From assembly GCA_019244055.1 (NCBI GenBank), contig JAFATG010000124.1, positions 1-37,156 on the forward strand: a stretch of DNA of 37,156 nucleotides. The letters are read 5' to 3'. Shown here in pieces: positions 4,587 to 21,545 of this stretch (its first letter is position 1; every line of letters begins with the position of its first letter). The notes beneath the pieces are model-generated. The model was not told the DNA's origin, did no database searches, and saw only the letters and a list, made by a program, of their open reading frames with translations. This stretch comes from Acidobacteriaceae bacterium (GTDB lineage Bacteria > Acidobacteriota > Terriglobia > Bryobacterales > Bryobacteraceae). The position numbers and the translations under genes are program-made.

Positions 4587-5469
4587 TTGTCTTGTAGCCG
4601 GTGAAACAAATGTCGATCTGATGATCGGAGCCAGCGTGAGCCTGGAGCCCGGTAAGGAAAAGCTTGCTGATGACATCAGGTTAGTTCTGGGCGGATCCAG
4701 TTCGATCACGGCCTTCAACCTCGCCGCTCTGGGCACAAAGGTCGGATTCGTTGGAGTAATTGGGTGCGATGCGTTCGGAGATTTTATCGAGCAGCGCCTG
4801 GCTTCGGCCGGGATCGATCTAAAGGGGTTGCGGCGCGATAAGACGAGCAGGACAGGTATTACCGTCTGGTTTGATGAGAAAGGCAGACGGAGTGGCATCA
4901 CCTACCCGGGCACCATTCCTTTGCTTCGCGCTCAGGATATCTCGCCTGGTCAGCTCAAACTCGCCCGCCATTTACATGTGGGCCACTATTTCTTGCTCAC
5001 GCACCTGCATCCAGAAGCACCAGATCTCTTTGCGCGTGCCAAACGCATGGGTCTTACAACCTCTCTCGACTGTAACTACGATCCATCTGAGAAATGGAAT
5101 TCACGCATCGAACAGGTTCTCCGCCATACCGACATCTTTTTTCCAAATGAACAGGAAGCGCTCCTGCTCACCGGCAGCCGATCGGTGGAAGCTGCAGCGC
5201 GTGCGCTCGGAAAGCTCGCCCATATCGTAGCAGTCAAGTTGGGCGCCAAAGGTGTTTTCGTGTTTCACGATGGGAACAGCTTCCATGTTCCAGCTCGAAA
5301 GGTTCGTGTGGTCGATACGACAGGGGCCGGGGATAGTTTCAACGCCGGCTTCCTTTCTCAGTTTCTGCGCGGAGCCTCAGTGAGGGTTGCGACGAACGCC
5401 GGTCTTGCAGCGGCTACGCGTTGCGTGGCCAGGGTCGGTGGGACCGCTGCTTTCGAGCGCAAGCCATGA
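4570..5469 (+). CDS. PfkB-family (ribokinase-like) sugar kinase
   Basis: A 299-residue kinase of the PfkB/ribokinase superfamily, transferring phosphate from ATP to a sugar or sugar phosphate. It shows the N-terminal 'AGETNVDLM' strand and the glycine-rich 'GGSSSITAFNLAALG' substrate/lid region. The PfkB signature 'DTTGAGDSFNAGF' has the catalytic base at Asp255. Length is normal for the family. It starts inside agaS (17-base overlap) and its TGA overlaps the ATG of the pfk gene (ATGA), so this is a tightly coupled operon. With AgaS upstream, tagatose-6-phosphate or a related ketose is a reasonable but unproven substrate. Confidence 0.88.
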   Translation: MNKKLDCLVAGETNVDLMIGASVSLEPGKEKLADDIRLVLGGSSSITAFNLAALGTKVGFVGVIGCDAFGDFIEQRLASAGIDLKGLRRDKTSRTGITVWFDEKGRRSGITYPGTIPLLRAQDISPGQLKLARHLHVGHYFLLTHLHPEAPDLFARAKRMGLTTSLDCNYDPSEKWNSRIEQVLRHTDIFFPNEQEALLLTGSRSVEAAARALGKLAHIVAVKLGAKGVFVFHDGNSFHVPARKVRVVDTTGAGDSFNAGFLSQFLRGASVRVATNAGLAAATRCVARVGGTAAFERKP

Positions 5470-6647
5470 GTGTTCAAAAAGGTGCGACCGCCGTTGTCGT
5501 TCACACCGGAGGCCCTACGCCGGTGATCAACGCCAGTTTGGTCGGTGTGATCGAAGAAGCTCGCAAACATTCAGCAATCGCACATTTGCTGGGTGCGCGC
5601 TTCGGATTTGACGGTGTTCTAAAGCGCCAGTATTTCGACCTGTTTAATCAGGAAGAAGAAGCTATTCAGGCAATCGCAACTACTCCCTCGTCGGCGCTGG
5701 GTACTTCTCGGCGTGAATTAACCGCGAGCGATCTCGAGGGCGTGCTGAACGAGCTGCAATTGCACAAGACCCGTTACCTCTTCGTCACAGGCGGGAATGG
5801 CTCGATGGAGACGGCTCGTCAGATTCAGGAGCTCGCACTTCAACAAGGTCGTGATCTGCAGGTTATTGGGATTCCCAAAACGATCGACAACGATCTGCTA
5901 GAGACTCATCACACACCGGGCTACGGCTCTGCGGCCCGCTTCTTCGCCTGTGCAGCGCGTGATATCGGCGCCGATAACAAAGCGCTGCCGGGACAGGTAG
6001 AGATTATCGAGGTCTTAGGGAGAAACGTCGGCTGGCTGGCGGCGGCCACATCGCTTGCCCGCCGCGATCCGGACGATGCTCCTCACTTGATATATTTTCC
6101 CGAGCGGCTCCTTCCCCTGGACCGGCTTTTGGAAGATATTGACACGGTCTATAGGCGATTGAATCGTTGCGTGGTAGCAGTCTGTGAAGGCCAATTAGAT
6201 GAGTATCGGGAACCATTCGGCGCTGATGTCCGTTCCGGCTCCCGGGGCAGTCTTGCAATGAATCTGGCCCACCGGCTTGCGATGCTTGTATCGCAGCGGT
6301 TGCGGGTCCGCGCCCGCAGCGAGAAGCCAGGTCTCCTCGGTCGATCGAACGGCGCTTTCCAGTCTCCTGCCGATCTGAATGACGCTCGCCTTTGCGGCCA
6401 ACAGGCAGTTCTTGCCGCGCTAGACGGCCATGCCGGGAAGATGATCACCTTGATCTGCGTCTCTGAATCACCTTATGTCGCAAAAACAGGCCTCGCACCT
6501 CTCGATAAGGTGGCGCTGAAGGAACGTCTCTTCCCCGAGGGCTGGCAAAACAAGTCAGGCAACGACGTGACACCAGATTTCCAGCGCTTTGCCGAGCCAC
6601 TTATCGGCTCCATCAGAGCCTACGAGGAATTCTCGTTAGACGATTAG
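5466..6647 (+). CDS. 6-phosphofructokinase of the PfkA superfamily with mixed ATP/PPi signature
   Basis: A 393-residue phosphofructokinase-family enzyme (phosphorylation at C1 of fructose-6-phosphate or a similar ketose phosphate). I chose ATG 5466, whose ATGA overlaps the pfkB stop, rather than an upstream start at 5421 that would intrude 49 bases into pfkB. Motifs: 'HTGGPTPVINASL' at residues 13-25, 'GGNGSMETA' at 109-117 and 'GIPKTIDND' at 135-143 with catalytic Asp141. In family numbering (E. coli PfkA 104 and 124) the two cofactor-determining positions are Gly112 and Lys138. Gly at the first is typical of ATP enzymes, Lys at the second of PPi enzymes. The phosphoryl donor is therefore open. 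It is the last gene of the agaS operon. Confidence 0.88.
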   Translation: MSVQKGATAVVVHTGGPTPVINASLVGVIEEARKHSAIAHLLGARFGFDGVLKRQYFDLFNQEEEAIQAIATTPSSALGTSRRELTASDLEGVLNELQLHKTRYLFVTGGNGSMETARQIQELALQQGRDLQVIGIPKTIDNDLLETHHTPGYGSAARFFACAARDIGADNKALPGQVEIIEVLGRNVGWLAAATSLARRDPDDAPHLIYFPERLLPLDRLLEDIDTVYRRLNRCVVAVCEGQLDEYREPFGADVRSGSRGSLAMNLAHRLAMLVSQRLRVRARSEKPGLLGRSNGAFQSPADLNDARLCGQQAVLAALDGHAGKMITLICVSESPYVAKTGLAPLDKVALKERLFPEGWQNKSGNDVTPDFQRFAEPLIGSIRAYEEFSLDD

Positions 6648-6668
6648 TTGAGGTGATCTTCAAGATCC

Positions 6669-7793
6669 TTACAGCTTCAGAAAAATCTGTCGGCGGTACA
6701 GCCAGTAGCACAGATACCACATGATCAGAAGAATAGCTGTGGATTGTGCCACCGGAGCCAGCGTTCCCACGAAAGTGAAGTGAAAAGTGAAGACCCCAAC
6801 AGCCCGGTCCAGCCATTGGCGCAATATCTCAGAAACCACGTAAATGAAGATTGAGTTCATTCCTACCACGACTAGCGGAAATGCTGCCATCCGCCACCCG
6901 CATACTTCGATCAGCCAATAGAACCCGATCAGCATAAGAAGTACCCAGCCAAGACTGTAAAAAATAAAAGTAGGCGTGCAAAGCTGCTTAATCATGGGCA
7001 TCCAAGGTTTCAGGGATAATGCTGCTGCAAACGACAGAATCGTGCCTGCAGCGAGGAATTGCAGCTTCTGCCGGTGCGTTCGGACCGTCATAAAGAGCTG
7101 GCCCGCCCAGACTCCCGACAGCGTCCAAACCGTACTTGGAATGAAGTTGAGTGTCGAATACGCCGGATCATAATCATAATGAAAAATGGCCCGGTCCACG
7201 AGCAGGCCGACGCTGTTCATCTTTGAATAGGGTCCACCAGGACCATGAAACGAAAAAAGCAAAAGCGTCCAAACAGCGAGCAGGCCGCCAGTGGCTAGTA
7301 CTTGATAACGCCAACGCCATCGCATGATTAGAAAGCTGATTAAGTAAGTGAATGCGATTTGCGACAGCACGTTGATGAGTTGCGGCTTGATGTGGCCGCT
7401 GCCGACCCAGATGACAATCTGGCTCATCACCATAAGTCGCGCTGAACGCGCGAGAACATGGCGCAAATTATCACTCCAGCTAGCACCCCTTTCGTTCCGG
7501 CGGACCATAGCGAAGGGCAACGCCACACCGACCATGAACATAAATGCGGGCTGAATCATGTCCCAAAACACAGCGCCTTCCCAGGGGACGTGGTCAAACC
7601 AACTCGCGACCCGAGCCCAGTCCGGGTTGTTTCTGAGACGCGCGAAACCGAAGCCGTCGGAAGCCAATAGCAGCATGATGAAGCCTCGATATGCATCGAG
7701 AGCTACATACCGTGTAGCTTTACTCCGAGACAGCGAGCTTTCCTGAGCAGCAGGATTACTCGTCACCTGATCGGAATGGACGTTCGAGATCAC
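6669..7793 (-). CDS. NagX/HGSNAT-like membrane acyltransferase (DUF1624/DUF5009 type)
   Basis: A 374-residue integral membrane protein with about ten hydrophobic helices. It has the family hallmark 'LDAYRGFIMLLLASDGFGF' near residue 33 and 'FWDMIQPAFMFMVGVALPFA' in the second segment. This pattern belongs to COG4299 proteins related to heparan-alpha-glucosaminide N-acetyltransferase, which move acetyl groups across the membrane to amino sugars. The bacterial NagX name comes from N-acetylglucosamine gene clusters. The frame opens with a GTG at 7793 and no strong ribosome-binding site, so the first 30 residues are uncertain. It is convergent with the agaS-pfkB-pfk operon (21 bases between stops) and lies about 120 bases downstream of the first ADOP permease on the same strand. 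Confidence 0.8.
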   Translation of the reverse strand: MISNVHSDQVTSNPAAQESSLSRSKATRYVALDAYRGFIMLLLASDGFGFARLRNNPDWARVASWFDHVPWEGAVFWDMIQPAFMFMVGVALPFAMVRRNERGASWSDNLRHVLARSARLMVMSQIVIWVGSGHIKPQLINVLSQIAFTYLISFLIMRWRWRYQVLATGGLLAVWTLLLFSFHGPGGPYSKMNSVGLLVDRAIFHYDYDPAYSTLNFIPSTVWTLSGVWAGQLFMTVRTHRQKLQFLAAGTILSFAAALSLKPWMPMIKQLCTPTFIFYSLGWVLLMLIGFYWLIEVCGWRMAAFPLVVVGMNSIFIYVVSEILRQWLDRAVGVFTFHFTFVGTLAPVAQSTAILLIMWYLCYWLYRRQIFLKL

Positions 7794-7914
7794 GGAGCTA
7801 CATTCACCGGGAAGAATTGCATCTTCCTGACCTATTCTGTCTCAATGGAGCACTTCATTGTCCGGCAGGCAATTTGTGACTGGCTATCACGACTGAGGAG
7901 GGCAAAAAGCTGCC

Positions 7915-10377
7915 TCAGCTCTGCCGCAGCGCCGTAGCCGGATCCACTTGCGTTGCCCGAGTAGCCGGCCACCAGACCGCGAGGACTGCACTGACGAGGA
8001 GCACCATCGGGATCGTCGCGAAAACGAGTGGATCCCATGCAGTGATGCCGAAAAGGAAACCGGATATTTGCTTGGCGAGCGCGAACGCTCCTCCCATGCC
8101 AAACAGGAGACCGAACAACGCGAATGTGATTCCTTGCCGCATGACCATAGCGCGCACATTGCCACGTTCCGCACCGAGTGCCATGCGAATGCCGATTTCC
8201 TGGGTGCGCTGCTCGACTGAATAAGCCATCAGACCATAGATGCCAATTGCTGCAAGCAACAACGACACGCCGCCGAAGACGCTCATCAGAAGCATATGGA
8301 AGCGTTCGCGCGAGGTCGAACGCCTCACGACTTCAGTCATCGCGCGAATGTCGGTTACCGGAAGCCCAGTGCTCTGCCGGAGTTGTTCTTCCACGGCGGC
8401 GCGCAGGTCCATCGGTTCGCCGCGAGTGCGAATCACCCATGAAATAGGCCTGATATTTGAATTCAGCGCCTGAATGGCATCGGTTAGCTGCCCGGTTGGG
8501 ACATACATTTCCGGTTGCGGATCTTGATTCAGAGCTCCATCTCTTTGGTCGGAAACAACGCCAATGATCTGCCGTGCCGGTTCAGCATCGAATTCGGGCA
8601 TCATTCCTTTGCCGATCACGATGCGGTCCTGAAGAGGATCGCTCTTCTGCCAATAACGCCTCGCCATGGATTCGTTAATCATGACCACGGGAGCGCCAGC
8701 ATGACTGTCGCGTTCGGTGAACGATCGCCCACGAATTACGTGAATGCGAAATACTTCAAAAAACCCCGGGGAAACTGACTTAAATCCGCCACCGCCGTTG
8801 AAGGGGCCGCCTTGCAATGGACGGCCCAATATTCGGAAACCGATTCCATAGCCGCCTTCAAGGGGCACGCAACAGGTGGCGCTGGCCATCTCCACACCGG
8901 GCAGAGCATTCAGCCGTTGCGTTGCCTGCTGAATGAGTTGCTCGACAGCAAGACTCGTGGAGAGCGTTTTTCCGGAGAGCGACATGCGCATAGTTAAGAC
9001 GTGGTGTGTGTCGAAGCCTGGCTTCACTGCGTAAATGGCTGCAGCCGTTCGGATGAGCAAACCGGCTCCCACCAGGAGAATGACAGCGAGGGCGACCTCG
9101 GAGACCACCAGCAGCGTACGGGCTTTGTTCTGTCGGAATCCGCTGCCGGAGCGATTTGCACCCTCTCTGATACTTGTATTCAGGTCCGCGCGGGCTGAGT
9201 GCCAGGCCGGGAACAACCCGAAAAAGAGGCTGGTAAGCAGAGTAATAAGGATCGTGAACACGAGCACGCGCCAATCGAGCGTGACCATCGAACCATCTGT
9301 ACCGACGCGCGGTAAGCCGGCGGTGTTAACCGAGAGCAGCGCCCGGATGCTGATCAGCCCCAACCCGAGCCCGAGGAGCGCGCCGGCGGCGGCCAATAGA
9401 AGACTCTCAGTGAGTAGTTGGCGAACGATTCTGAAGCGGCCGGCGCCCAGCGCGGCCCTGATTGCGATTTCCCGTTTTCGCACTTCGGCCCTAGCGAGTA
9501 ATAGGTTTGCTACATTTGCGCAGGCAATAAGCAGCACAAATCCAACTGCGGCAGCGAGGACCCAGATGGACCTCTCAGAGCCGCGAACCAGCCCGCTTCT
9601 CAACGTCTCCGAACTGAAGCTTTCTCCTTTATCGAGACCGTTAGGAAACTTGTGACGAAACGCTGCGGCAGACGCTTCCAGGCGTGCGTTGGCCTGTTCG
9701 AAAGTTACTCCGCTCTTTAGTCTTCCGGCTGCCTGGAAAAAGTGGCCCTGATCGTTCGAATTAGGGTCGAGCTGGAAGGGAACCCATATTTCAGGAGCAT
9801 CCCCGAAGTCCTGAAAATCGAAACGTGAAGATACGACTCCGGTAATGGTATACGGTTGAGAGCCCAGCGTCATCGTTTTGCCGAGAACGTTCGGATCACC
9901 GGCGAAGCTACTCCTCCAAATGCCTTCGCTAATCACAACGACCGGTGGAGCGCCCGGTGTATCTTCTAAAGCGTTGAAAGGCCTTCCCACGACCATGGGA
10001 ACGCCAAACAGGCGAAAATAAGCCGAGCTCACGCGTTCCGAGCGAAGCTGCTTCGGAAAGTGGCCGCCGGTCCAGTTCACAACTCCGCCGGCGAACGCCG
10101 CGACGTCCTCCAGGACTTCCGTCTGCTGCGACCAATGCGCGAATTTGGCCGGTGAACCTGCAGCAAAGCTGCCCCGCGGGGTTTTCGTTTCGAGAATCAC
10201 GATCCGGTTCGCGTTCGGGAAAGGTGGCTCCTTCAGGAGGACTGTATTCACGAGAGAAAAGATTGCGGTATTGGCTCCGATGCCCAAGGCAAGAGCGATG
10301 ACGGCCGTGAGCGTAAAGGAGCCGCCTTGGGAGAATAACCGGATCCCGTGGCGAAAATCCTGAATGAGTGTATCCAT
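7915..10377 (-). CDS. Orphan ABC transporter permease, ADOP/MacB-FtsX type (copy 1)
   Basis: An 820-residue permease with duplicated MacB_PCD-FtsX architecture. An N-terminal helix ('LTAVIALALGIGANTAIFSLV') is followed by a periplasmic domain to about residue 275. An FtsX block of three helices follows ('LACANVANLLLARAEVRKREIAIRAALGAG'-like region near 280-400). A second helix near 425, a second periplasmic domain and a final FtsX block ('IGIRMALGAERGNV' region to the C-terminus) complete it. This duplicated form is the acidobacterial orphan permease type, normally encoded without an adjacent ATPase, and none is adjacent here. By family analogy it should work in mechanotransmission or export of peptides/lipids with an unlinked ATPase. 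The second copy in this window, at 24710-27127, has the same plan. Confidence 0.9.
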   Translation of the reverse strand: MDTLIQDFRHGIRLFSQGGSFTLTAVIALALGIGANTAIFSLVNTVLLKEPPFPNANRIVILETKTPRGSFAAGSPAKFAHWSQQTEVLEDVAAFAGGVVNWTGGHFPKQLRSERVSSAYFRLFGVPMVVGRPFNALEDTPGAPPVVVISEGIWRSSFAGDPNVLGKTMTLGSQPYTITGVVSSRFDFQDFGDAPEIWVPFQLDPNSNDQGHFFQAAGRLKSGVTFEQANARLEASAAAFRHKFPNGLDKGESFSSETLRSGLVRGSERSIWVLAAAVGFVLLIACANVANLLLARAEVRKREIAIRAALGAGRFRIVRQLLTESLLLAAAGALLGLGLGLISIRALLSVNTAGLPRVGTDGSMVTLDWRVLVFTILITLLTSLFFGLFPAWHSARADLNTSIREGANRSGSGFRQNKARTLLVVSEVALAVILLVGAGLLIRTAAAIYAVKPGFDTHHVLTMRMSLSGKTLSTSLAVEQLIQQATQRLNALPGVEMASATCCVPLEGGYGIGFRILGRPLQGGPFNGGGGFKSVSPGFFEVFRIHVIRGRSFTERDSHAGAPVVMINESMARRYWQKSDPLQDRIVIGKGMMPEFDAEPARQIIGVVSDQRDGALNQDPQPEMYVPTGQLTDAIQALNSNIRPISWVIRTRGEPMDLRAAVEEQLRQSTGLPVTDIRAMTEVVRRSTSRERFHMLLMSVFGGVSLLLAAIGIYGLMAYSVEQRTQEIGIRMALGAERGNVRAMVMRQGITFALFGLLFGMGGAFALAKQISGFLFGITAWDPLVFATIPMVLLVSAVLAVWWPATRATQVDPATALRQS

Positions 10378-10492
10378 GATCCTTTTGGCTCAGACGTGTT
10401 TTGGGCGTGAAAGTTCCGAAAACGCTCAATTAGGGTGGGTTCCGGCGCGCATAGATCCAGTTATCGCCTTACGCGAAGAATGATGCGTTGGT

Positions 10493-11353
10493 TTAGGCGG
10501 CTTTTTCCTCCGCCATAGTGCTCTGGATGCTCTCGCTGACGAGCTGTTCGCCGCCGGGAAGCTGCCGATTCAGCAGATTTTGACGATCAAGTTTGGCTTG
10601 GTCGATCAGAACGGCCCATCGGTGGCGTTCCTGCTGGCGTTTTTCGCGGGCTTCGCGGCGAGCTTGATCCGCTTTTTTATGCTGCTGCGAAACAAAGCCA
10701 TTTTGCTCTCTCCTCCTTTCTGCTCGGAGCTTCAGGAGATCGTTCAAGCACTTATGGAACGCGCGCTCGTGGGTGGTTTGGTAGCGCAGATAGAGCGCGA
10801 GGTGCGCGTCGTTATCGCAGCCGCCCACTTCGTTGAAACAGAACCCTTGGAGATAGAGAGCGCGTTGAGAGAGCCAGTGGTGCTCGGCCATGCGATCGAC
10901 GAGTAAGTGCTCGGTGCGAGTAGCAGGACGGTGCTCCTCGCGGAGACCGTCGAGAAGTTCTTGATAATCGTCCTCGCTTTCATAAGGCATGATTGCGAAG
11001 CGTCCAGTGAGCCCGTGGCGAAAGGCGTTGAAGGAGACGGTCTCCTTGCCCGCGGATGATCTTGGCCCGCAGGATCGCTGAGCATTCTGGCGGTTAGCGC
11101 GGAGTTGGGCGAAGGAAATGCGGCCGCTCGCTGCGGGTCGTGGTTCCCAATCGAGTTGAGTGGGGGAACTGCCTCCGCTCGCTACCGCTCGCGGTTCCGA
11201 ATGGGGGACCGCTTCCTGTGGGTGCGGCTCAGAATCGGGAAGGAGGCCGGCTTTGCGCTCGATCTTTTCGCGCAGCGCGTTGGCTTCGGCGATGAATTCG
11301 GGGGTGAATTCGTCAAGGAGTTCGGGATTCGGTTCGCTCGATCGAGGGGACAT
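10493..11353 (-). CDS. Lineage-specific hypothetical protein ('NRxNAQxSxGPR...GK' family)
   Basis: A 286-residue protein of unknown function, of a type I associate with Acidobacteriota where it tends to be multicopy. The recognisable core is 'NRQNAQRSCGPRSSAGKE' followed by 'NAFRHGLTGRF' near residues 88-118. A helical domain follows, then a very basic, Q/R-rich coiled-coil tail from about 200 to 265. The N-terminal third is low-complexity and carries two related segments ('SEPRAVASGG' and 'WEPRPAASGR') spaced 17 codons apart. They are encoded by an imperfect DNA repeat listed separately. The ATG at 11353 has AGGAGA about 5 bases upstream. No signal peptide or membrane segment is seen. The gene is divergent from the hsd locus. 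Confidence 0.75.
   Translation of the reverse strand: MSPRSSEPNPELLDEFTPEFIAEANALREKIERKAGLLPDSEPHPQEAVPHSEPRAVASGGSSPTQLDWEPRPAASGRISFAQLRANRQNAQRSCGPRSSAGKETVSFNAFRHGLTGRFAIMPYESEDDYQELLDGLREEHRPATRTEHLLVDRMAEHHWLSQRALYLQGFCFNEVGGCDNDAHLALYLRYQTTHERAFHKCLNDLLKLRAERRREQNGFVSQQHKKADQARREAREKRQQERHRWAVLIDQAKLDRQNLLNRQLPGGEQLVSESIQSTMAEEKAA
11124..11200. repeat. Imperfect in-frame repeat (two 26-bp copies) inside the hypothetical gene
   Basis: Copies at 11124-11149 and 11175-11200 match at 21 of 26 positions and start 51 bases apart, so the repeat is in frame (17 codons). On the minus strand the second copy contains GCGAGCGGTAGCGAGCGG, two GCGAGCGG octamers separated by TA. This looks like a small dispersed or REP-like element domesticated in a coding region. 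Confidence 0.5.
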
Positions 11354-11407
11354 AAGTTCTCCTGCGATGAAAGTAAATTAAAGGTGTTCTCCCGGTGTCG
11401 TGGTATC

Positions 11408-11459
11408 CGCGTAACGCGCTGTGGGCGCGAGAGAAGAAACGTATGAGTCAGCAGTGACT
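11408..11459. promoter_or_regulatory. Two small inverted repeats in the divergent hypothetical/hsdM intergenic region
   Basis: The 170-base gap between the divergent starts holds CGCGTAACGCG (11408-11418, arms of five around a central A) and AGTCA-GCAG-TGACT (11446-11459). Either could be an operator or a short hairpin for the divergent promoters. The sequence TACCATAAT at about 11496-11504 is a possible -10 region for hsdM. No function is demonstrated. Confidence 0.25.
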
Positions 11460-11523
11460 GGCAATTCTTAAGGCGTCGCGAAGGCTTATCCGATACCATA
11501 ATGAGTTCCAGTTTTCATAACGA

Positions 11524-12844
11524 ATGCTTTCCGGCGAGATCCGCAACCAAATCGACGCCATCTGGAATGTTTTCTGGACAGGCGGTATTTCCAACCCGCT
11601 CGAAGTCATCGAGCAGATCACCTATCTTCTCTTTTTGCGCCGTTTAGACGAGCTCCAGGAGCTCGAGGAGCTCAAGGCGACACGCTTGGGCAGACCGCTC
11701 GAGACGCGATTCTTTCCCGAAGGTAGGGATGACAAGGGCTGGCCCTACGAAAACCTGCGATGGTCACGTTTTAAGAACCAAGAGCCACGGGATATGTACG
11801 ACACGGTGGCCGAACATGTGTTTCCGTTTCTGCGCCAGCTTGGAGGTAATGGCACGGCTTACGCGCAGCACATGAAGGATGCGCGGTTCACCATCCCCAC
11901 GCCGGCGCTCCTCTCGAAAGTCGTCGATCTCATAGCCAAGGTCCCGATGGAGGATCGCGACACCAAAGGCGACCTCTACGAATACATGCTCAGCAAAATG
12001 CTTCGATTTCGACAACACGATGCTCCGTATCGGCAGCATGAACATGCTGCTGCATGGCGTTGAAGATCCCGACGTGCGGTACCGCGATTCGCTGGCTCAG
12101 GACCACGCGGCTGATGCCGAGACCTACTCGCTTGTGCTGGCGAATCCGCCGTTCGCCGGAGCGCTGGATTACGAAAGCACCGCCAAAGACCTGCTTGCCA
12201 TAGTCAAGACCAAGAAAACCGAGCTGCTATTTGTAGCGCTCTTTTTGCGCCTTCTCAAAACCGGCGGGCGCGCAGCGGTAATTGTGCCCGACGACGTGCT
12301 GTTCGGTTCGAGCAAAGCGCACAAGACGCTGCGCGAGCTTCTGGTCGAAGAACAGAAGCTCGATGCTGTTATTTCGCTTCCGGGAGGCGTCTTCAAGCCC
12401 TACGCGGGCGTCTCGACGGCCGTTCTGCTCTTCACCAAAACGAATTCAGGAGGCACCGATTACGTCTGGTTTTATGACATGGATGCGGACGGCTGGTCGC
12501 TCGACGACAAACGCCAGGAGCTCTTGCCGGAGGACAGGCTCGGTCCGTGCCCAGAAACGCCTCTCACGGAAGACGAACATTCGAAGAATAATCTTCCCGA
12601 TGTGCTGACGCGTTGGGCCAATCGCGAGACGAGCGAGCGCGAACGCCCGCGCACAGCGCAGAGCTTTTGCGTTCCGAAAGACGACATCAAGGCGAACAGC
12701 TACGATCTCAGCATTAACCGATACAAAGAGGTTGTGCATGAAGAGACCGAGCATATTCCGCCGCAGCAAATACTTGCTGAGTTGATGCAACTAGAGCGGG
12801 AGATTGAGAGCGGCTTGCGAGAGTTGGAGGGAATGCTCGCGTAA
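11524..12844 (+). pseudogene. hsdM: Type I restriction-modification methyltransferase subunit with internal deletion and frameshift
   Basis: The first frame (11524 to about 12001) gives a normal HsdM N-terminus: 'NPLEVIEQITYLLFLRRLDE' and 'GDLYEYMLSK'. The second frame (from about 12003) resumes with 'FDFDNTMLRIGSMNMLLHG' and includes the catalytic 'ANPPF' motif IV. It then runs through 'SLPGGVFKPYAGVSTAVLLF' to the stop at 12842-12844. In intact HsdM proteins the two pieces are separated by roughly 70-75 residues holding the 'G-Q-F-x-T-P-R' segment and the SAM-binding 'DPACGTxGF' motif I. Those residues are absent here in every frame, and the join also changes frame. The product cannot be a working methyltransferase unless the sequence is wrong. 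The stop overlaps the hsdS ATG (TAATG). Confidence 0.88.
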
Positions 12845-13995
12845 TGAACCGGGTAATTGCATCGGCTCACTATCCGATAAGGCCGCTTGGGGCTGTCGCA
12901 GAGTTCCTCGATAGCAGGCGCGTCCCCGTCAAAGATTCGAAACGCCTTCCTGGGCCTTACCCGTATTACGGCGCAAATGGCCAAGTTGGTACGATTGACG
13001 GCTATCTTTTCGATGAGCCTTTGGTTCTCCTCGCGGAGGACGGTGGGTTCTTCGATGCACCTCATCGGGGAATTGCATATGCGGTTCGCGGGAAAACCTG
13101 GGTGAATAACCATGCGCACGTACTTCGACCTCGAGAGGCTGTCGACCTACGTTATCTCTTCCGCGTGCTTGAGAACTACGACGTCACACCATTCATTAGT
13201 GGCACGACACGTAGCAAGCTTACCCAGCAGGGAGCATCTCGAATTCCGATCCCCCTCCCGCCGCTTTCTGAACAGGGGCGAATCGCGGCCATTCTCGATC
13301 AGGCAGACGCGGTCCGCTTGAAGCGCAATGAAGCGCTCGAAAAAGCGGACGCAACAATCGAGGCCGTTTTCAGAAATATGTTCGATGCACCAGGTACAAA
13401 GTGGCCTGAGGTCCCGATATCGGATCTGGCAACAAACATCAGAACAGGCCCGTTTGGCAGCCAGCTACTTCATTCCGAGTTCAAAGAGTCAGGCATCGCC
13501 GTACTTGGAATCGACAACGCAGTGCAAAACAAATTTGTCTGGGCGCGTCCCCGGTATATCAACGAGCGGAAGTTCCAACAGCTGAGGCGCTATGCGGTTC
13601 ATCCGGGCGACGTCCTAATCACAATCATGGGAACGTGCGGTCGATGTGCCGTGGTGCCACAAGACATCCCGACCGCAATAAACACAAAGCACCTTTGCTG
13701 CATATCTCTCGATCAGGCAAGATGTCTGCCAGCGTACCTACATTCCTGCTTCTTAATGCATCCCAGTGTGTTGCGGCGACTCGGTATCCACGAGCGGGGG
13801 GCAGTCATGCCGGGCCTGAACATGCAAATCATCAAAGAACTTCCGATCCCGTTGCCACCGCTTCACCTACAAGGGAAGTTCTCGTCCCTTGCCGTTCGGC
13901 TCGAGTCCGGAATGGAGCTTCGAAGGGAATCATTCGCCAAACTGAACGCGCTCTTCCAATCCCTCCAATACCGCGCGTTCCGAGGTGAACTTTAG
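12844..13995 (+). CDS. hsdS: Type I restriction-modification specificity subunit
   Basis: A 383-residue HsdS that would choose the bipartite target sequence for the methylase/restriction complex. It shows the usual two-repeat plan. The first target-recognition domain covers about residues 1-140. A conserved spacer follows ('IPLPPLSEQGRIAAILDQAD' then a helix through 'EAVFRNMF'). The second recognition domain begins near 'WPEVPISDLATNIRTGPFGS', and a second conserved region ('IPLPPLHLQGKF' to 'LNALFQSLQYRAF') closes the protein. The frame is intact, unlike hsdM and hsdR. It starts on the hsdM stop (one-base overlap), and hsdR begins directly after its stop, so the three were one operon. Target sequence cannot be predicted. 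Confidence 0.9.
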   Translation: MNRVIASAHYPIRPLGAVAEFLDSRRVPVKDSKRLPGPYPYYGANGQVGTIDGYLFDEPLVLLAEDGGFFDAPHRGIAYAVRGKTWVNNHAHVLRPREAVDLRYLFRVLENYDVTPFISGTTRSKLTQQGASRIPIPLPPLSEQGRIAAILDQADAVRLKRNEALEKADATIEAVFRNMFDAPGTKWPEVPISDLATNIRTGPFGSQLLHSEFKESGIAVLGIDNAVQNKFVWARPRYINERKFQQLRRYAVHPGDVLITIMGTCGRCAVVPQDIPTAINTKHLCCISLDQARCLPAYLHSCFLMHPSVLRRLGIHERGAVMPGLNMQIIKELPIPLPPLHLQGKFSSLAVRLESGMELRRESFAKLNALFQSLQYRAFRGEL

Positions 13996-16900
13996 ATGCC
14001 GCACTTCGGCTTCCTGCAAGCGGAATGGAAAGACATCTTCACTGCCGCCGCGAAAGCCGAATTGAACACGCTGCCCGATCCCCGCACCGGATGCTTCTAC
14101 GCCCGTCGTGCGCTCGAACTTGCAGTTGCGTGGCTCTATAAGGCTGATAAGAGTCTCAAGGCTCCATACGACGACAACCTTAGCGCGCTGCTCAACGAAC
14201 CTACTTTTCGCACTCTGATCGGCCAGGATCGATACACCAAGGCCCGCATCATAAAAGAACTCGGCAATGAGGCTGTCCACAGCCACGTACCGATTACACC
14301 GGCGCAATCGATTGAGGCTCTGCGCGAACTTTTCCATTTCTGCTATTGGCTCGGAAGAACTTACGCGCGGACAGCCGCAGGGCGCCCCGCGCCGGGACTT
14401 AAATTCGATCCCAACCGGCTTCCAAAGACATCGCCCATCCCGCCGCAGACGGCGGCGCAACTCGCCAGGCAGGCGGAAGAGATCGCCCAGCGCGATGCGG
14501 AGCTGAAACTGCGCCAGCAGAAGCTCGATGAGTTCGCGGTCGAAACCCAGCAGCTCAACGAAGAGCTCGCCCGCCTTCGAGCCGACATAGCGGAAGCGAA
14601 ACGGGCCAACCAGTCCGTCCCAGATACTCACGACTATTCGGAAACCGAAACCCGCGACGCCTTTATCGACCTGCTGCTGCGAGAGGCCGGATGGAAGCTC
14701 GCCGACACGCGCGACCGGGAATTTCCAATCACCGGGATGCCCAACGAGTCAGGAACCGGCTGGGTAGATTATGTTCTCTGGGGCAAAGATGGCCGCCCGC
14801 TGGCGCTGGTCGAGGCGAAGCGGACCAAGCGTTCTATCGAAGAAGGCCGACAGAAAGCGAAGCTCTATGCCGATTGCCTGGAAAAGCAGTTCGGGCAGCG
14901 ACCGATTATTTACTTAAGCAACGGCTATGAACACGAGATCTGGGACGATACGCAATACCCCTCGCGTCCCGTGCAGGGATTCCGGACACAAGATGAACTC
15001 GAACTTCTCTTCCAGCGCCGGACCACTCACCGCCCGCTGCATGAGATCGAAATCGATCGCAAGATTGTGGACCGGTATTACCAGGAGCGCGCGATTCGCA
15101 AAATCGCCGAGGCGTTCGAAACGAAGCACGTTCGCCGCGCGCTTCTCGTCATGGCAACGGGAGCCGGCAAGACCCGGACCGTCATAGGGCTTGTCGATCT
15201 GCTGCTTCGGGCTAACTGGATCAAACGGGTTCTCTTTCTGGCCGATCGCGTAGCGCTCGTAAACCAGGCGGTAAGCGCGTTCAAGAAGCACCTGCCCTCA
15301 TCAGCGCCGGTCAACCTCGTTACCGAGAAGAACGTGGACGGGCGAGTTTATGTCTCGACGTATCCGACGATGCTGGGCTTAATTGAGGAAGCCCAGGATG
15401 GCGAGCGCCGCTTCGGCCCTGGTTATTTCGATCTGGTCATCATCGACGAAGCCCACCGTTCGGTGTACCAGCGGTACGGGGCCATTTTCGAGTATTTCGA
15501 TTCGCTGCTTGTGGGACTCACGGCGACGCCGCGGGATGAGACTGACCGCGATACTTACAAGCTCTTCCATTTGGAACCGGGTGTTCCCACAGACGCGTAC
15601 GAACTCACGGACGCCGTAGCCGACGGATATCTGGTGCCGGCCCGCTCCGTTTCGATGGCGTTGAAGTTTCCGCTTGAAGGCATCCACTACAACGACCTCA
15701 CGGAGGAAGAGAAGCGCGAATGGGACGAGATTGAATGGGACGAAGATCCCGAAGCTCCCAAACCGGACCGTGTCGAAGGAGGCCGTCAACAGGTGGCTGT
15801 TTAATGAAGACACCGTGGATAAGGTTCTCGAGACGCTGATGCTAAGGGGCAGCGTGTCGCCGGGGGCGACCGGCTCGGGAAGACGATCATTTTTGCAAAG
15901 AACAACGATCATGCGGTTTTCATCGCGAAGCGTTTCGACGCAAATTACCCGCAGTACGGCGGCCAGTTCGCACGCGTGGTCACTTTCAAGACCGAATACG
16001 CCCAGAGCCTGATTGACAGCTTCTCAAAACCGGAGGCGATGCCGCACATCGCGATATCGGTGGACATGCTGGATACAGGTATCGATGTGCCCGAAGTCGT
16101 CAATCTGGTGTTCTTCAAGCTGGTCCGCTCGAAGACGAAATTCTGGCAGATGGTGGGACGCGGAACACGTCTGCGGCAGGATCTTTTCGGCCCGGGCGAA
16201 GATAAACAGTTCTTCTACATATTCGATTTCTGCGGGAATCTCGAATACTTCAAGGAAAACCCGGAAGCGGTGGATTCCAGCCTCAGCATGCCGCTCGGCA
16301 AGCGCCTATTCGTTCTGCGACTCGAACTGATGGATGAGCTCGACAAGGCGGAGCCGAAACGATATCCGGAACTGCGAGCCGCGACGGCTGAACTGTTGCG
16401 CGCAGAAGTCGCCGCCATGAACGTGAATAACTTCATCGTGAGGCCGCACCGGCGGCTTGTGGAGCACTACGCCGAAGCGGCCGCATGGGAGTCGCTGTCG
16501 ATAGAGAATCGTTCAGAACTCGAAAAGAACGTGGCCGGGTTGCCGTCGGAGCTGATTGACAACGATCAGGACGCGAAGCAGTTCGATGCTCTGACGCTGC
16601 GGCTCCAGTTGGCCGTACTGCGGGCCGAACCGCAGTTTTCCACGCTCCGCATGCAAGTTGAACAAATTGCGGGCCTGTTATCGGAAAAGGCAAACATCCC
16701 GATGGTGCGGGCGCAGATGCCGCTCATAGAGGATCTGCAAACGGACGCTTTTTGGCAAGACGTAACGCCCACGATCCTGGAACGGGTCCGCAAGGACCTT
16801 CGGGCTCTTATTAAGCTCATCGAAAAGGTAGGACGTAAGCCTGTCTTCACGAGCTTTGAGGACGAGCTCGGCACCGAGGCCGAAATCGCATTTGCTCAAT

Positions 16901-17385
16901 TCACACCCGGCATCGATTTTCAGCGATTCCGAGCCAAAGCGCGGCACTTCCTACGGGAGCATCAAGACATACCTGTGGTTCGCAAGCTGCGTAGCGTGGA
17001 GCCTCTAACGGCGGCCGACCTGCAGGAAATTGAACGCCTCTTGATAACGGAGGGCATCGGCAGCGAGCGCGACCTCGCTCACGCGAAGGAGGTCAGCCAC
17101 GGGTTGGGCTTGTTCCTGCGCTCTCTCGCCGGCGTGGATCGGGTAGCCGCAAAGGCCGCGTTCAACGACTTCCTGAATGGCCGTACGCCGACTGCGAACC
17201 AGATTGAGTTTCTGAACATGATCATCGACCATGTGGCGGATCGGGGCTTTCTCGACCCTGAACTTTTGTATGCTTCCCCGTTTATCGACATCAGCGCGAA
17301 GGGTGTTGATGGAATTTTCCCGCCGGAGGAGGTCAATGCGCTGTTTGCTGTCCTTCAGAATCTCAAGGCAAGTGCCGCGGTATAG
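13996..17385 (+). pseudogene. hsdR: Type I restriction enzyme R subunit with two compensating frameshifts
   Basis: The protein would be about 1130 residues. Domains in order: an N-terminal DUF4145-like helical domain (about 1-125); a coiled coil (about 150-205); the HsdR_N nuclease core with 'GWVDYVLWG' and 'ALVEAKRTKR'; DEAD-like helicase motifs 'MATGAGKTRT' (Walker A) and 'VIIDEAHRS'. After the lesion come 'SVDMLDTGIDVPEVVN', 'QMVGRGTRLRQD' and an EcoEI-type C-terminal domain. At about 15778 the reading shifts +1: an extra G after the codons for 'PDRVE' restores 'EAVNRWLFNEDTVDKVLE'. At about 15840 it shifts back, resuming 'VAGGDRLGKTIIFAKN' in the original frame. Unshifted translation stops at 15804. 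These are real indels or assembly errors; if real the gene is dead. Confidence 0.9.
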
Positions 17386-17476
17386 CGTGTGGTGAACGTG
17401 GTGTGGTGTTCGGGAATGTCTTCTGCACGCGCTGTTGTTTGCGCTGTCTTCGATGAGATCGCCCCGCAGGAGACCC

Positions 17477-17815
17477 ATGCCGGCGCATAGCAATACCCGA
17501 TCCGTCCAGCGCGATATCAAACGGATGGTTCAGCGGATCGTCAATCAGTTCCATCCCGAGCGTGTGATTCTCTTTGGTTCTCACGCACGCGGAGAAGCGG
17601 GCCCGGATAGTGATGTGGATCTATTGATCGTGATGCCGGTGGACGGGCAGAAGCGTAAGATGCAGGTTCAGATTCGAGTAGCCCTGCACGACATCCGCGT
17701 TCCGAAAGACATTATCGTTACTACGCCCGAGGACTTCGAATGGCGCAAGGAAGTCCCAGGCACGATCGAGTACCCCGCCGTGAAGGAAGGAAAAGTCCTG
17801 TATGTCCGATCCTGA
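17477..17815 (+). CDS. MNT-type minimal nucleotidyltransferase
   Basis: A 112-residue protein of the DNA polymerase beta-like nucleotidyltransferase superfamily. It has the signature 'FGSHARGEAGPDSDVDLLIV' (GS followed by DxD). I chose ATG 17477 because AGGAG lies 4 bases upstream; a longer TTG start at 17435 has no such site. Proteins of this size usually pair with a HEPN partner as a toxin-antitoxin-like module, where the MNT adenylylates the toxin. Here no HEPN gene follows; the next frame begins at 17802 and resembles a PQQ-propeller remnant. It therefore looks like an orphan or relic of a module. It lies 90 bases after hsdR, in keeping with a defence-island setting. Confidence 0.82.
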   Translation: MPAHSNTRSVQRDIKRMVQRIVNQFHPERVILFGSHARGEAGPDSDVDLLIVMPVDGQKRKMQVQIRVALHDIRVPKDIIVTTPEDFEWRKEVPGTIEYPAVKEGKVLYVRS

Positions 17816-18072
17816 CAACGTCGCGACCAATACGGGTCCGAAGATACTGGTGTTCGTGGTGAGCAGCTCTAACACGTTGTTCGCAGTGGATGCAAAAGAC
17901 GGCAAGAGTGGTCTGGAACCGCACGTTCCAGAGTTATGCGCCAAAGTGGAGATGCGATGAAGGCGTGGGTACACTTCACTGGCATTGCGGTGACAGGCGG
18001 CCGTGTTTTGCCGTGGAGCATGAATCGCGCCTCTACCGCTTCGGCTTGAGACGTGGTGGGGCGGGGGAGTGA
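17802..18072 (+). pseudogene. Remnant of a PQQ-type beta-propeller protein
   Basis: The frame starting ATG 17802 reads 'ILVFVVSSSNTLFAVDAKDG', which resembles one blade of a PQQ quinoprotein propeller. It then ends at a TGA near 17958-17960. In a second frame the sequence continues 'RVVWNRTFQSYAPK', the expected 'V-W-x-R-x-F' that follows such a blade. That frame ends with 'ESRLYRFGLRRGGAGE' before the stop at 18072, reminiscent of a terminal 'LYALDLxTG' blade. The remnant would be the 3' end of a secreted dehydrogenase or similar protein that lost its body and accumulated frameshifts. Compare the intact gene at 34670, which has 'AYAVDAATGKLLWK'. The resemblance is short, so this is a moderate-confidence call; a meaningless open stretch is the alternative. 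Confidence 0.38.
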
Positions 18073-18175
18073 AAGGGCGACATGCCGATGAACATTTCAG
18101 CGCCCTCGCGGCCACTCAAGATTCGACCAACATAAGGGCCGCGGATTACGTTCGGTATGATTTGGGAGCGCACAC

Positions 18176-18463
18176 GTGGGATTACAAAATTTTATCGAAG
18201 AAGTGGAAGTTCTGGGCAGAGATCTGGTCGAGAAAATTCGAGCCTTGATCCATGAAGGTAATGTGCAGCGCATTATCATCAAAGATGAGCACGGACATAC
18301 CTTCATCGAAATTCCTGTGACGTTTGCAGCAATAGGTGCTATTGCAGCTCCAGTGCTCGCTGCCGTTGGCGCGATCTCTGCAATCGTGGCTAAATTCACG
18401 ATCGTTGTTGAGCGTGCAGAGCCGAATACTTCCGCGGATGCGGCCGGGCCGAAGAAACAGTGA
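18176..18463 (+). CDS. DUF4342-like small protein
   Basis: A 95-residue protein starting at GTG 18176, with GGGAG about 7 bases upstream. The N-terminal half is a helix-strand unit containing 'DLVEKIRALIHEGNVQRIII' and 'HGHTFIEIPVT'. The second half is a hydrophobic hairpin ('FAAIGAIAAPVLAAVGAISA') ending in 'TIVVERAE'. This order of features fits the DUF4342 family of small, probably membrane-associated proteins of unknown function. Its stop overlaps the GTG start of the VOC gene (GTGA), so the two are translated together. No function should be assumed. Confidence 0.72.
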   Translation: MGLQNFIEEVEVLGRDLVEKIRALIHEGNVQRIIIKDEHGHTFIEIPVTFAAIGAIAAPVLAAVGAISAIVAKFTIVVERAEPNTSADAAGPKKQ

Positions 18464-19347
18464 GTGGGTTTGTGCATCGTTTTGGTTTCTTGCTGTTCAT
18501 TCCTATATTGCTTGGAGCCGCCGATTTGAAAGTCGACCATGCGACAGTCGCGGGAAGCGACCTGCGAACCATGATGGATAATCTTGCCGCCGTCGGGATT
18601 CATTGCGAGTACGGTGGCCCGCACAATGATCACATCACGGAGATGGCGTTGACAAGCTTCCCGGACGGGTCATATCTCGAGTTGATCGCGCCCCAATCAG
18701 GCAGCAATAAGGATGTGACAGCACACGTATGGATAAAACAGATGCAGAACAATGCAGGTCCGTCCGCTTGGGCTATCCGGTCCTCGGATCTCGCTGGAGA
18801 TGTGAAACGCCTCCAGGCGGCTGGCGTAACGGTGAGCTCACCCCAACCAGGCGGGCGCAAACGGCCCGATGGCAAGCGTCTGGAGTGGGAAACTGCGCAG
18901 ATCGGGGAAGAGCCTCGCGGCACATTCTTTCCGTTCATTATCCAAGATTTGACGCCTAGGCAGGACCGCGTCTTTCTCACCGGAAAGCCGACGACAAAGG
19001 ATTTCATCGGTATAGCTCGTGTTGTGATCGCGGTGCGGGATCTGCGTGTCGCGGTGCAGCGTTATCGGGATGCCTTTGCGCTTCCATCGCCAATCGAGCA
19101 AGTCGATAAGGATTTCGGGGCCCATCTGGCCTTGTTTACTGGTACTCCTGTCGTGTTGGCGGCGCCGCTACATGCCGGCTCCTGGCTGGCGGCCCGCTTA
19201 GAGCAATTCGGCGAAGGCCCCTGCGCATTCATCCTTGGAGCGCGCAAAGCCGGGCATTACAAACCGGCTGAGAAAACGTACTGGGCGATGGCGGATATCT
19301 CATGGTTTGACACGACCAAATTAGGATGGCATCTCGGATTCGAGTGA
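18460..19347 (+). CDS. Secreted VOC/glyoxalase-like protein
   Basis: A 295-residue protein with an N-terminal hydrophobic segment ('FGFLLFIPILLGAAD') fitting a signal peptide, so it probably acts outside the cytoplasm. The mature part begins 'LKVDHATVAGSDLRTMMDNL', the first strand-helix of a vicinal-oxygen-chelate module. 'SYLELIAP' and a second module from about residue 185 ('GIARVVIAVRDLRVAVQRYRD') follow. His (in 'KVDHATV') and Glu (in 'YLELIAP') sit where VOC proteins bind metal. It resembles the Glyoxalase_3 group, whose reactions are mostly unknown. It starts on the stop of the DUF4342 gene with a 4-base overlap. Substrate is not predictable. Confidence 0.75.
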   Translation: MSGFVHRFGFLLFIPILLGAADLKVDHATVAGSDLRTMMDNLAAVGIHCEYGGPHNDHITEMALTSFPDGSYLELIAPQSGSNKDVTAHVWIKQMQNNAGPSAWAIRSSDLAGDVKRLQAAGVTVSSPQPGGRKRPDGKRLEWETAQIGEEPRGTFFPFIIQDLTPRQDRVFLTGKPTTKDFIGIARVVIAVRDLRVAVQRYRDAFALPSPIEQVDKDFGAHLALFTGTPVVLAAPLHAGSWLAARLEQFGEGPCAFILGARKAGHYKPAEKTYWAMADISWFDTTKLGWHLGFE

Positions 19348-19431: not shown

Positions 19432-20277
19432 GTGCGGACCGAAGAAGAGATGATGGCGTTGATCCTCGGGTTTGCCCGTGATCGTGACGATGTGCGTGCT
19501 GTGGTTATGACGGGCTCGCGCACAAATTCGGCGGCCAAGCGCGATCGATTTCAGGATTACGACATCACGTATGTGGTCGAAGATCTCGCACCGTATCGGC
19601 GAAACCAGCGTATTCCCGCATATTTCGGCGACATTATGATCCTCCAGAACCCGGATGACATGGGAGACGCTACGGCCGACAAAACGAGCTATGCGTATCT
19701 CATGCAGTTCATGGACGGGAATCGAATTGATCTGACTTTTCGCCCCGTTTTTGACGTAGGCTCGATTTTGGCAGACTCACTTTCGCTCGTACTGCTGGAT
19801 AAAGATCGACGATTCGAGCTCCCGCCGCCGACCCTCCAGAGTTACCTCCCTACAAAGCCCACAGCGAAGCAATTCGCCGACTGCTGCAACGAGTTCTGGT
19901 GGTTGAACCCGTACGTTGCCAAAGGATTGTATCGAGATCAGATCCCTTATGCCAAAGCCATACTCGATGAACTGTTACGTACTCAGCTACGACAAATGTT
20001 GACGTGGTACTTGGGCGTGACAACGAATTTCCAGGTCTCGGTCGGTCTAGCTGGCAAACATCTCAAGAGTCAACTGCCTGATGACCTCTGGAGGCTCATG
20101 GAACGCACCTACTCCGATGTCCGGCCAAACAACATCTGGGAAGCACTGTTCGCCATGGACGAGCTTTTCGGGACGGCAGCCCGCGCAGTCGCCAGAGCGT
20201 TTGGGTTCGCTTATTGCGAGCGGGAAGAAGCCGCGATCTCGTTGTTCACCCGGCAGATTCGGGATCAAGCTGGTTAA
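19432..20277 (+). CDS. ANT(6)-like streptomycin/aminoglycoside 6-adenylyltransferase family protein
   Basis: A 281-residue nucleotidyltransferase of the ANT(6)/AadK family, which adenylylates the 6-hydroxyl of streptomycin. It starts at GTG 19432 with CGGAG about 7 bases upstream, and the first residues 'MRTEEEMMALILGFARD' match the family start. The active-site signature is 'MTGSRTN' with 'FQDYDITYVV' (DxD), and the third acidic residue is in 'GNRIDLTF'. The C-terminal helical half includes 'WWLNPYVAKGLYRDQIPYAK'. Length is normal for the family. It is flanked by the VOC gene and a convergent pseudogene, with no transposon signs, so it looks like a chromosomal environmental homologue. Whether it confers resistance cannot be told from sequence. 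Confidence 0.85.
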   Translation: MRTEEEMMALILGFARDRDDVRAVVMTGSRTNSAAKRDRFQDYDITYVVEDLAPYRRNQRIPAYFGDIMILQNPDDMGDATADKTSYAYLMQFMDGNRIDLTFRPVFDVGSILADSLSLVLLDKDRRFELPPPTLQSYLPTKPTAKQFADCCNEFWWLNPYVAKGLYRDQIPYAKAILDELLRTQLRQMLTWYLGVTTNFQVSVGLAGKHLKSQLPDDLWRLMERTYSDVRPNNIWEALFAMDELFGTAARAVARAFGFAYCEREEAAISLFTRQIRDQAG

Positions 20278-21545
20278 CCGCGCACATTGCGCGCCAGCGT
20301 AAGAGATCCATCAGCGTTCGTCTTTTGCCGGCAGGCCCAGGTCACCGGATACTGAACGCCTTTCACCTCCAATTCCGCCTTCAGCCGGACACCCTTCCAG
20401 TCTGTTCCGGGCGGTAACATCAGCATCGCCTGGCGAATTCCCGTGGGCTTCGGATATCCCGGATCAACACATCCGCTGACATTGACAGCCCCATTCTCGC
20501 TGAACGCGGTCAATCGCAACACGCGCGGCATACCCGCGACTCCGTTATTCGCCAGCCCAATTACCAGCCCTGGCGTCCCCTCCCGTTCGAAGCTCCAGAT
20601 GAATGACGGCCGGATCCGATACCCGATATGCCGCGCAATAAAGTCGATCGGTTCCGGATACTTTTCGTAATAGCTCAGGACGTTCTTCGCCGCTTCGTTA
20701 TGCCAGTTCCACACCGACCAGTAGTTCGCGCCGACATCCAGCACGTGTGAGGTGATCTTTTCGTTATAGGTGACGCCCTCATCCAGTGCCACGCGCCGCG
20801 GATCGCCGGTAGTCATGCCAACCTCGCAAATCGCCGCCGTCCAGGACGGCCGGTTACTTAAGACCTCGCGTGTTTTCGATAAAGATCGTATCCGTTCGAA
20901 TCCAGTTATGACTGCGAATGGTCTGGTCGAGCAAGTCCGCATTGCCCACGTGGCCGAAGTCCGGTTGCGTATTTGTGACGAGAGGAATTTTGGTCCATAT
21001 TTCGAGTTGCGTCTCGAACATCTTCATCCATGTCTGCTCGGCGACGACGTCGCTCGGAAATATATTGCCTTCAAACGGCCACGTATGCCCCTCGCCCCAG
21101 AAGCCGTACATCATCGTATCCATGTACTCGATCCAGGGATTCCCATTGAACTCAGCCGCCAGCAGTTCGTTCAACTCGCGAAACGCGGCCTGATACTCCG
21201 GGTGATCGTAGCGCGGCATCCGGTGCTCTTTCTGGTAACGCGTTTCTGATGGATTGCCTTTCCACTCGCCCTTGAGCCTCACATACGGAACCTTGTTTTT
21301 CAGGAACTCGGGCATTCCCGGCTCTGGAAAGTCCGGGTTCTCCAGCATGATGCGGAACCCGACCCGCTTGTTGTACCGTTTCGCCAGATCGAACGTGATC
21401 TGCCCCAATCGGGCAAATCGAGCCTGCCGGGCTTCTTCTGAACCTCTCTCCAGTTGGCCGGATATAAATCTTCTCAGTAAAGGGAATCTTGACCAGGTCT
21501 TCGAGCGATTTCTCCAGTGTTTCTCCCGTCAGGTGCGGCGGTTTG
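20274..21545 (-). pseudogene. Decayed glycosidase-like (TIM-barrel, DUF4832-type) gene, several frameshifts and 5' truncation
   Basis: Reading the minus strand from about 21545, protein-like sequence switches frame at least three times. 'HLTGETLEKSLEDLVKIPFT' goes to 'PANWREVQKKPGRLDLPDW' near 21460. That goes to 'ITFDLAKRYNKRVGFRIMLE' near 21405. That reaches 'FIENTR' and shifts to 'EVLSNRPSWTAAICEVG' near 20870, running to the stop at 20274. The barrel part contains 'WIEYMDTMMYGFWGEGHTWP', like glycoside hydrolase-like proteins with a DUF4832-type C-terminal beta domain ('PGLVIGLANNGVAGMPRVLR'). No start or signal peptide is found in frame: a stop precedes the first segment. The 3' end overlaps the ANT(6)-like gene by 4 bases. 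Substrate unknown; clearly non-functional as read. Confidence 0.72.

Follow-up and report, generated by a model that had tools for sequence, protein, structure and literature searches.

A type I restriction-modification operon of the Bryobacteraceae, probably inactivated through an internal deletion of the SAM-binding block of hsdM

Type I restriction-modification (R-M) enzymes act as R2M2S complexes and, as set out in PMC3874165, their activity needs ATP, Mg2+ and SAM; the same source names EcoAI as the prototype of type IB (PMC3874165) and describes the gamma-class methylases as having a SAM site contributed by motif I and a catalytic site contributed by motif IV (PMC3874165). Systems resembling EcoAI and EcoEI have their M, S and R genes in a row, with the respective domain combinations HsdM_N plus N6_Mtase, Methylase_S, and HSDR_N plus helicase plus EcoEI_R_C. 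An insertion in hsdRSM, together with the absence of m6A, has been reported in Streptococcus pyogenes M1-SC (PMC8597746). The locus analyzed here shares gene order and domains with the EcoAI/EcoEI-like systems, but its hsdM is devoid of the SAM-binding block and its hsdR carries two small deletions and a stop. It is also akin to the M1-SC case in being a type I system apparently lost through a natural lesion, although the lesion here is an internal deletion and not an insertion as in M1-SC (PMC8597746).

The window, i.e. the entire stretch of DNA analyzed, comprises positions 1-37,156 (37,156 nt, forward strand) of contig JAFATG010000124.1 from assembly GCA_019244055.1 (Acidobacteriaceae bacterium; Bryobacteraceae). 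The source genome (6.2 Mb in 372 contigs, completeness 96.7%, contamination 3.81%) looks like a metagenome-assembled one. The genes hsdM, hsdS and hsdR follow one another on the + strand between 11524 and 17385 (Table 1), and HsdM_N, N6_Mtase, Methylase_S, HSDR_N, ResIII and EcoEI_R_C are all detected by Pfam over their cut-offs. With all three genes present, the operon is a type I R-M system by descent. The best-scoring relative of its hsdM is found in an operon of Acidobacteria bacterium isolate S-RSF-IL-07 (hereafter L006), with an HsdM amino acid identity of 81% in the C-terminal and 64% in the N-terminal part. Unlike the window, L006 has an open hsdM and two extra ORFs between hsdS and an hsdR-like stretch, at 5260-6684 (474 aa), which we take to be dGTPase-like, and at 6867-8039 (390 aa), presumably Fic-like.

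Table 1. Features of the interrupted hsdM-hsdS-hsdR operon (window coordinates)
Feature	Position	Strand	Basis
hsdM 5' part (HsdM_N domain, then up to LYEYMLSK)	11524..11999	+	PF12161; 71-73% DNA identity to L006, L117, L118, L120
hsdM deletion junction, SAM-binding block (QFRTPR, DPACGT) gone	11999..12000	+	L006 alignment, relatives' motif spacing
hsdM 3' part, other frame: GFD, MNM, NPPF, C-terminal region	12000..12844	+	PF02384; L006 aa identity
hsdS, 383 aa, open, two Methylase_S stretches	12844..13995	+	PF01420 95.5 bits
hsdR (DUF4145 + HSDR_N + helicase + EcoEI_R_C), interrupted, both ends in one frame	13996..17385	+	tblastn, Pfam
hsdR 2-nt deletion (~15778) and resulting in-frame TAA (15802-15804)	15778..15804	+	alignment to 12 open HsdR relatives
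hsdR 1-nt deletion, frame regained after stop	15842..15843	+	alignment to 12 open HsdR relatives

Examination of hsdM reveals no single open frame, but two overlapping ones, 11524-12063 (179 aa) and 12020-12844 (274 aa), with the frame switch at 11999/12000. The first contains HsdM_N (70.8 bits against a cut-off of 24.5) and, past the junction, runs through 14 or more nonsense residues to its stop at 12063, while the second matches the N6_Mtase profile PF02384 (123.6 bits) over profile positions 91-309 of 311. A DNA alignment with L006 shows that 218 nt of the latter (2711-2928) have no counterpart at the switch, flanked by segments of 72% (11547-11996) and 78% (12000-12753) DNA identity; the 5' matches to L006, L117, L118 and L120 all end at 11990-11999. 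Furthermore, the K codon of LYEYML.K and the G codon of HGFD are 219 nt apart in 47/47 readable relatives, out of 81 supplied to the motif script (the 80 loci described below plus L117); a relative counts as readable if the two flanking motifs are present and the sequence between them is free of stops, and the other 34 of the 81 could not be read with the patterns used. From these comparisons the net loss of 218 nt is firm, and the frame changes because 218 is not a multiple of three (3 x 72 + 2). An internal deletion removing the SAM-binding block had been claimed in the preliminary description of this DNA, and is borne out by the L006 alignment and the 47/47 spacing: the proposed junction at about 12001 was right to within two bases, the "roughly 70-75 codons" correspond to 72.7 codons, and the comparison with an intact HsdM that it had called for, made here on the DNA of L006, yields the gap of 218 nt.

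In L006 numbering the lost block begins with the last base of the codon for residue 159 and ends with the first base of that for residue 232; TPR (170) and DPACGT (192) lie within it. The earlier wording that "precisely" the segment with these two motifs had been lost was correct in that both are gone and slightly strong in that the linker up to GFD has disappeared as well; GFD itself and the catalytic NPPF (280 in L006; 12143-12154 in the second frame) are kept. Stretches of L006 HsdM that take in the lost block are matched by solved HsdM structures (5ybb, 3ufb, 2okc, EcoKI as 2ar0 and 2y7c, and others), and the counterpart of the block in the two alignments examined, those of 5ybb and 3ufb, reads GEFYTPR ... 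DPACGT. A DPACGT-like motif I is absent from the gene, and such sites across the window are no more frequent than expected by chance. A search of the genome itself for a spare copy of the block returned only the 15 residues that follow the junction, and in this 96.7%-complete genome the sole protein matching PF02384 is the hsdM product of the window. The deletion should abolish SAM binding, and with it methylation and restriction alike; modification by this system is probably lost.

The neighboring hsdS is open, in line with the earlier statement that it stays intact, and the damage that had been noted in hsdR is also evident. The 12 best relatives of HsdR align in a single frame from 13996 or 14005 to 17370-17382 with 56-60% identity, save that a stretch of 30 of their residues is read from two frames in the window, the first change corresponding to a loss of 2 nt and the second to a loss of 1 nt. 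The TAA between these two small deletions lies inside the helicase region, so that an uninterrupted hsdR frame through this domain is absent. Together the two deletions bring the frame back and, judged by these alignments, hsdR is nearer to intact than its two separate ORFs imply. The C-terminal EcoEI_R_C domain (PF08463) scores 87.4 bits (cut-off 24), and the NCBIfam whole-protein EcoAI model gives 190.7 and 56.3 bits for the two separate HsdR pieces (cut-off 550).

It had further been proposed that a working HsdR would be dangerous once hsdM is lost, which would make the damage in hsdR significant. The supposed danger finds no support. Restriction by type I enzymes depends in turn on HsdM and SAM, so an HsdM without a SAM site should leave restriction failing as well. 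After targeted knock-out of hsdM, two Streptococcus pyogenes strains are reported to have grown unaffected, and the one assayed for transformation showed an approximately 500-fold gain in plasmid uptake (PMC8597746). Among seven interrupted relatives queried with HsdR, two have an hsdR that is open over its whole length beside the interrupted hsdM, namely L031 (hsdM at 5478-6822, from a Chloroflexi metagenome genome) and L118 (hsdM at 5052-6590, from the family of the window's own host); in three more (L017, L009 and L075) hsdR is open up to the end of the locus, in L071 it is broken, and for L043 no HsdR match was found within the locus stretch examined. An open hsdR beside an interrupted hsdM does not fit an obligatory loss of hsdR, an argument that would weaken if the interruptions were sequence errors. 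The hsdR damage thus reads as further decay and not as a needed safety step, which corrects the idea of a dangerous HsdR left behind after loss of the HsdM SAM site.

Interruption of hsdM is not rare among close loci. A collection scan with the C-terminal half of HsdM as query, which leaves an intact N-terminal part unselected, found 406 loci, of which 80 were kept; with hsdM counted as open where a single tblastn match without stops exceeds 450 residues, 70 are open, a contig end truncates 4, and in 6 the interruption lies within the contig (L009, L017, L031, L043, L071, L075). L031 is without about 32 codons ahead of the motif-I block, and the other five have small frame shifts or stops. Loss of the whole motif-I block was seen in none of these six, the exact lesion being encountered once only. 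The distribution of the operon is patchy: with full-length L006 HsdM as query, 13 of 399 sampled genomes of the class gave a match at E <= 1e-60, the source genome included. An N-terminal HsdM query had matches in 3 of the 59 other genomes searched, and in none of the 16 others from the genus. One of the HsdM matches (G317) has a single in-frame TGA, and another (G121) is limited to residues 1-217, inside a 19.5-kb contig.

In light of these observations, we consider it probable that this type I R-M operon, which has a patchy distribution and encodes an R subunit with an EcoEI-type C-terminal domain, was inactivated by deletions and is now a pseudo-operon. The hsdM deletion would have arisen by an illegitimate event, i.e. 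one not guided by repeats, and would have cost the enzyme SAM binding and thereby both methylation and restriction; hsdR could have decayed before or after the loss of hsdM, in the absence of selection. A fairly recent loss would explain why the remainder of the operon can still be read. As to the mode of deletion, direct repeats of at least 8 nt are absent from 11900-12100, and 10380-18400 contains two 18-nt pairs, one direct (12054, 15655) and one inverted; a shorter inverted pair of 8 nt, at 12033-12050, is part of the GSMNMLL codons and identical in L006. As a repeat-guided deletion leaves a single copy, such a search of the present sequence is only weakly informative, and the break points were therefore compared in the 47 readable relatives. 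The two break points have no base in common in register, and the longest word common to the 20 nt around each is 3-7 nt. A repeat-guided origin is thus not suggested, although the bases lost from this particular lineage could still have held a short end repeat.

The best-surviving alternative, which we regard as unlikely, is that the gap and the hsdR indels are assembly artefacts of mis-joining or low coverage, and that the living cells have an intact operon. The hsdM junction may indeed be a mis-assembly, or a minority variant in the cells, given the metagenome-like genome with its many contigs and its contamination. The hsdR indels compensate each other in frame, an outcome that random decay does not favour, and similar small frame changes are found in a nearby gene at 20277-21541 on the - strand. 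Homologues of this gene with about 80% amino acid identity are open at 521 aa (G031) and 548 aa (G432), and a third is open at 378 aa, where it is cut by the locus end (G453); the copy in the window changes frame near 21450, 21405 and 20867, lacks any match upstream of about 21541, and its two ORFs gave no match to Pfam. By comparison with its homologues it is also a decayed gene. Against an artefact, the break points of the 47 readable relatives offer no repeat that could have been collapsed, and the missing block was found on no other contig of the genome. The lesions are moreover confined to the operon and this one other gene, whereas the 21 other ORFs of 180 aa or more in the window (26,652 nt) are open, as judged by length only. 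An even spread is disfavoured, since under it the operon's three lesions would all fall in the operon with p ~0.006 and the six lesions in the operon and the second gene with p ~1e-4, but with reservations: the second gene was counted because it is broken, and the comparison ORFs (>=180 aa) were chosen as open, which favours such a result.

We see very little room for a split or remodelled HsdM, in which the N- and C-terminal fragments and the intact HsdS would form a DNA-binding complex incapable of methylation or cleavage and kept for a non-restriction, regulatory role. Consistent with such a complex, hsdS and both halves of hsdM are open, and the second frame starts with an ATG at 12020; however, with part of its SAM-binding core deleted the domain would be expected to unfold, hsdR too contains a stop, and the same form occurs in 0 of the 80 loci. 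Phase variation, i.e. hsdM being switched on and off by a reversible deletion or recombination, is known for type I systems such as SpnIV (PMC6265443), but is scarcely credible here and is rejected because a lost block could not be restored in the absence of a donor copy: no spare copy was found in the genome and there are no notable repeats around the operon.

Returning to inactivation by deletion, the type I R-M system of the window has very probably ceased to function, a common kind of decay of which this is an ordinary example. If the lesions are real, the host is without this defence and without this m6A mark. The reach beyond the host genome is small, a further dead system of type I being put on record.

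The surroundings of the operon were compared with other genomes in search of an empty site in the genus. The left neighbor gene, 6669-7793, has amino acid matches of 82% (G010) and 72% (G014). The G010 contig is only 3,548 bases long, and the G014 contig (16,968 bases) has in common with the window only the DNA of this gene and two short matches to 17833-18049. The right neighbor, 18460-19347, has a best match outside its own genome of 64%, and it is the only DNA that the stretch examined in G006 has in common with the window. These comparisons did not fix the insertion point, and the window has no tRNA genes that could have served as an integration site. Adjoining hsdM is an ORF on the - strand, 10493-11353 (286 aa), with no Pfam match. 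Its family has 30 matches in its own genome, itself included, and matches occur in all 17 genomes searched within the genus. The longer of the DNA copies are 71-80% alike, and the ORF may represent a mobile or repeated element that is so far undescribed. On the other side, 19432-20277 (+) encodes a protein similar to streptomycin adenylyltransferases (PF04439, 328.7 bits), in what is apparently an environmental genome.
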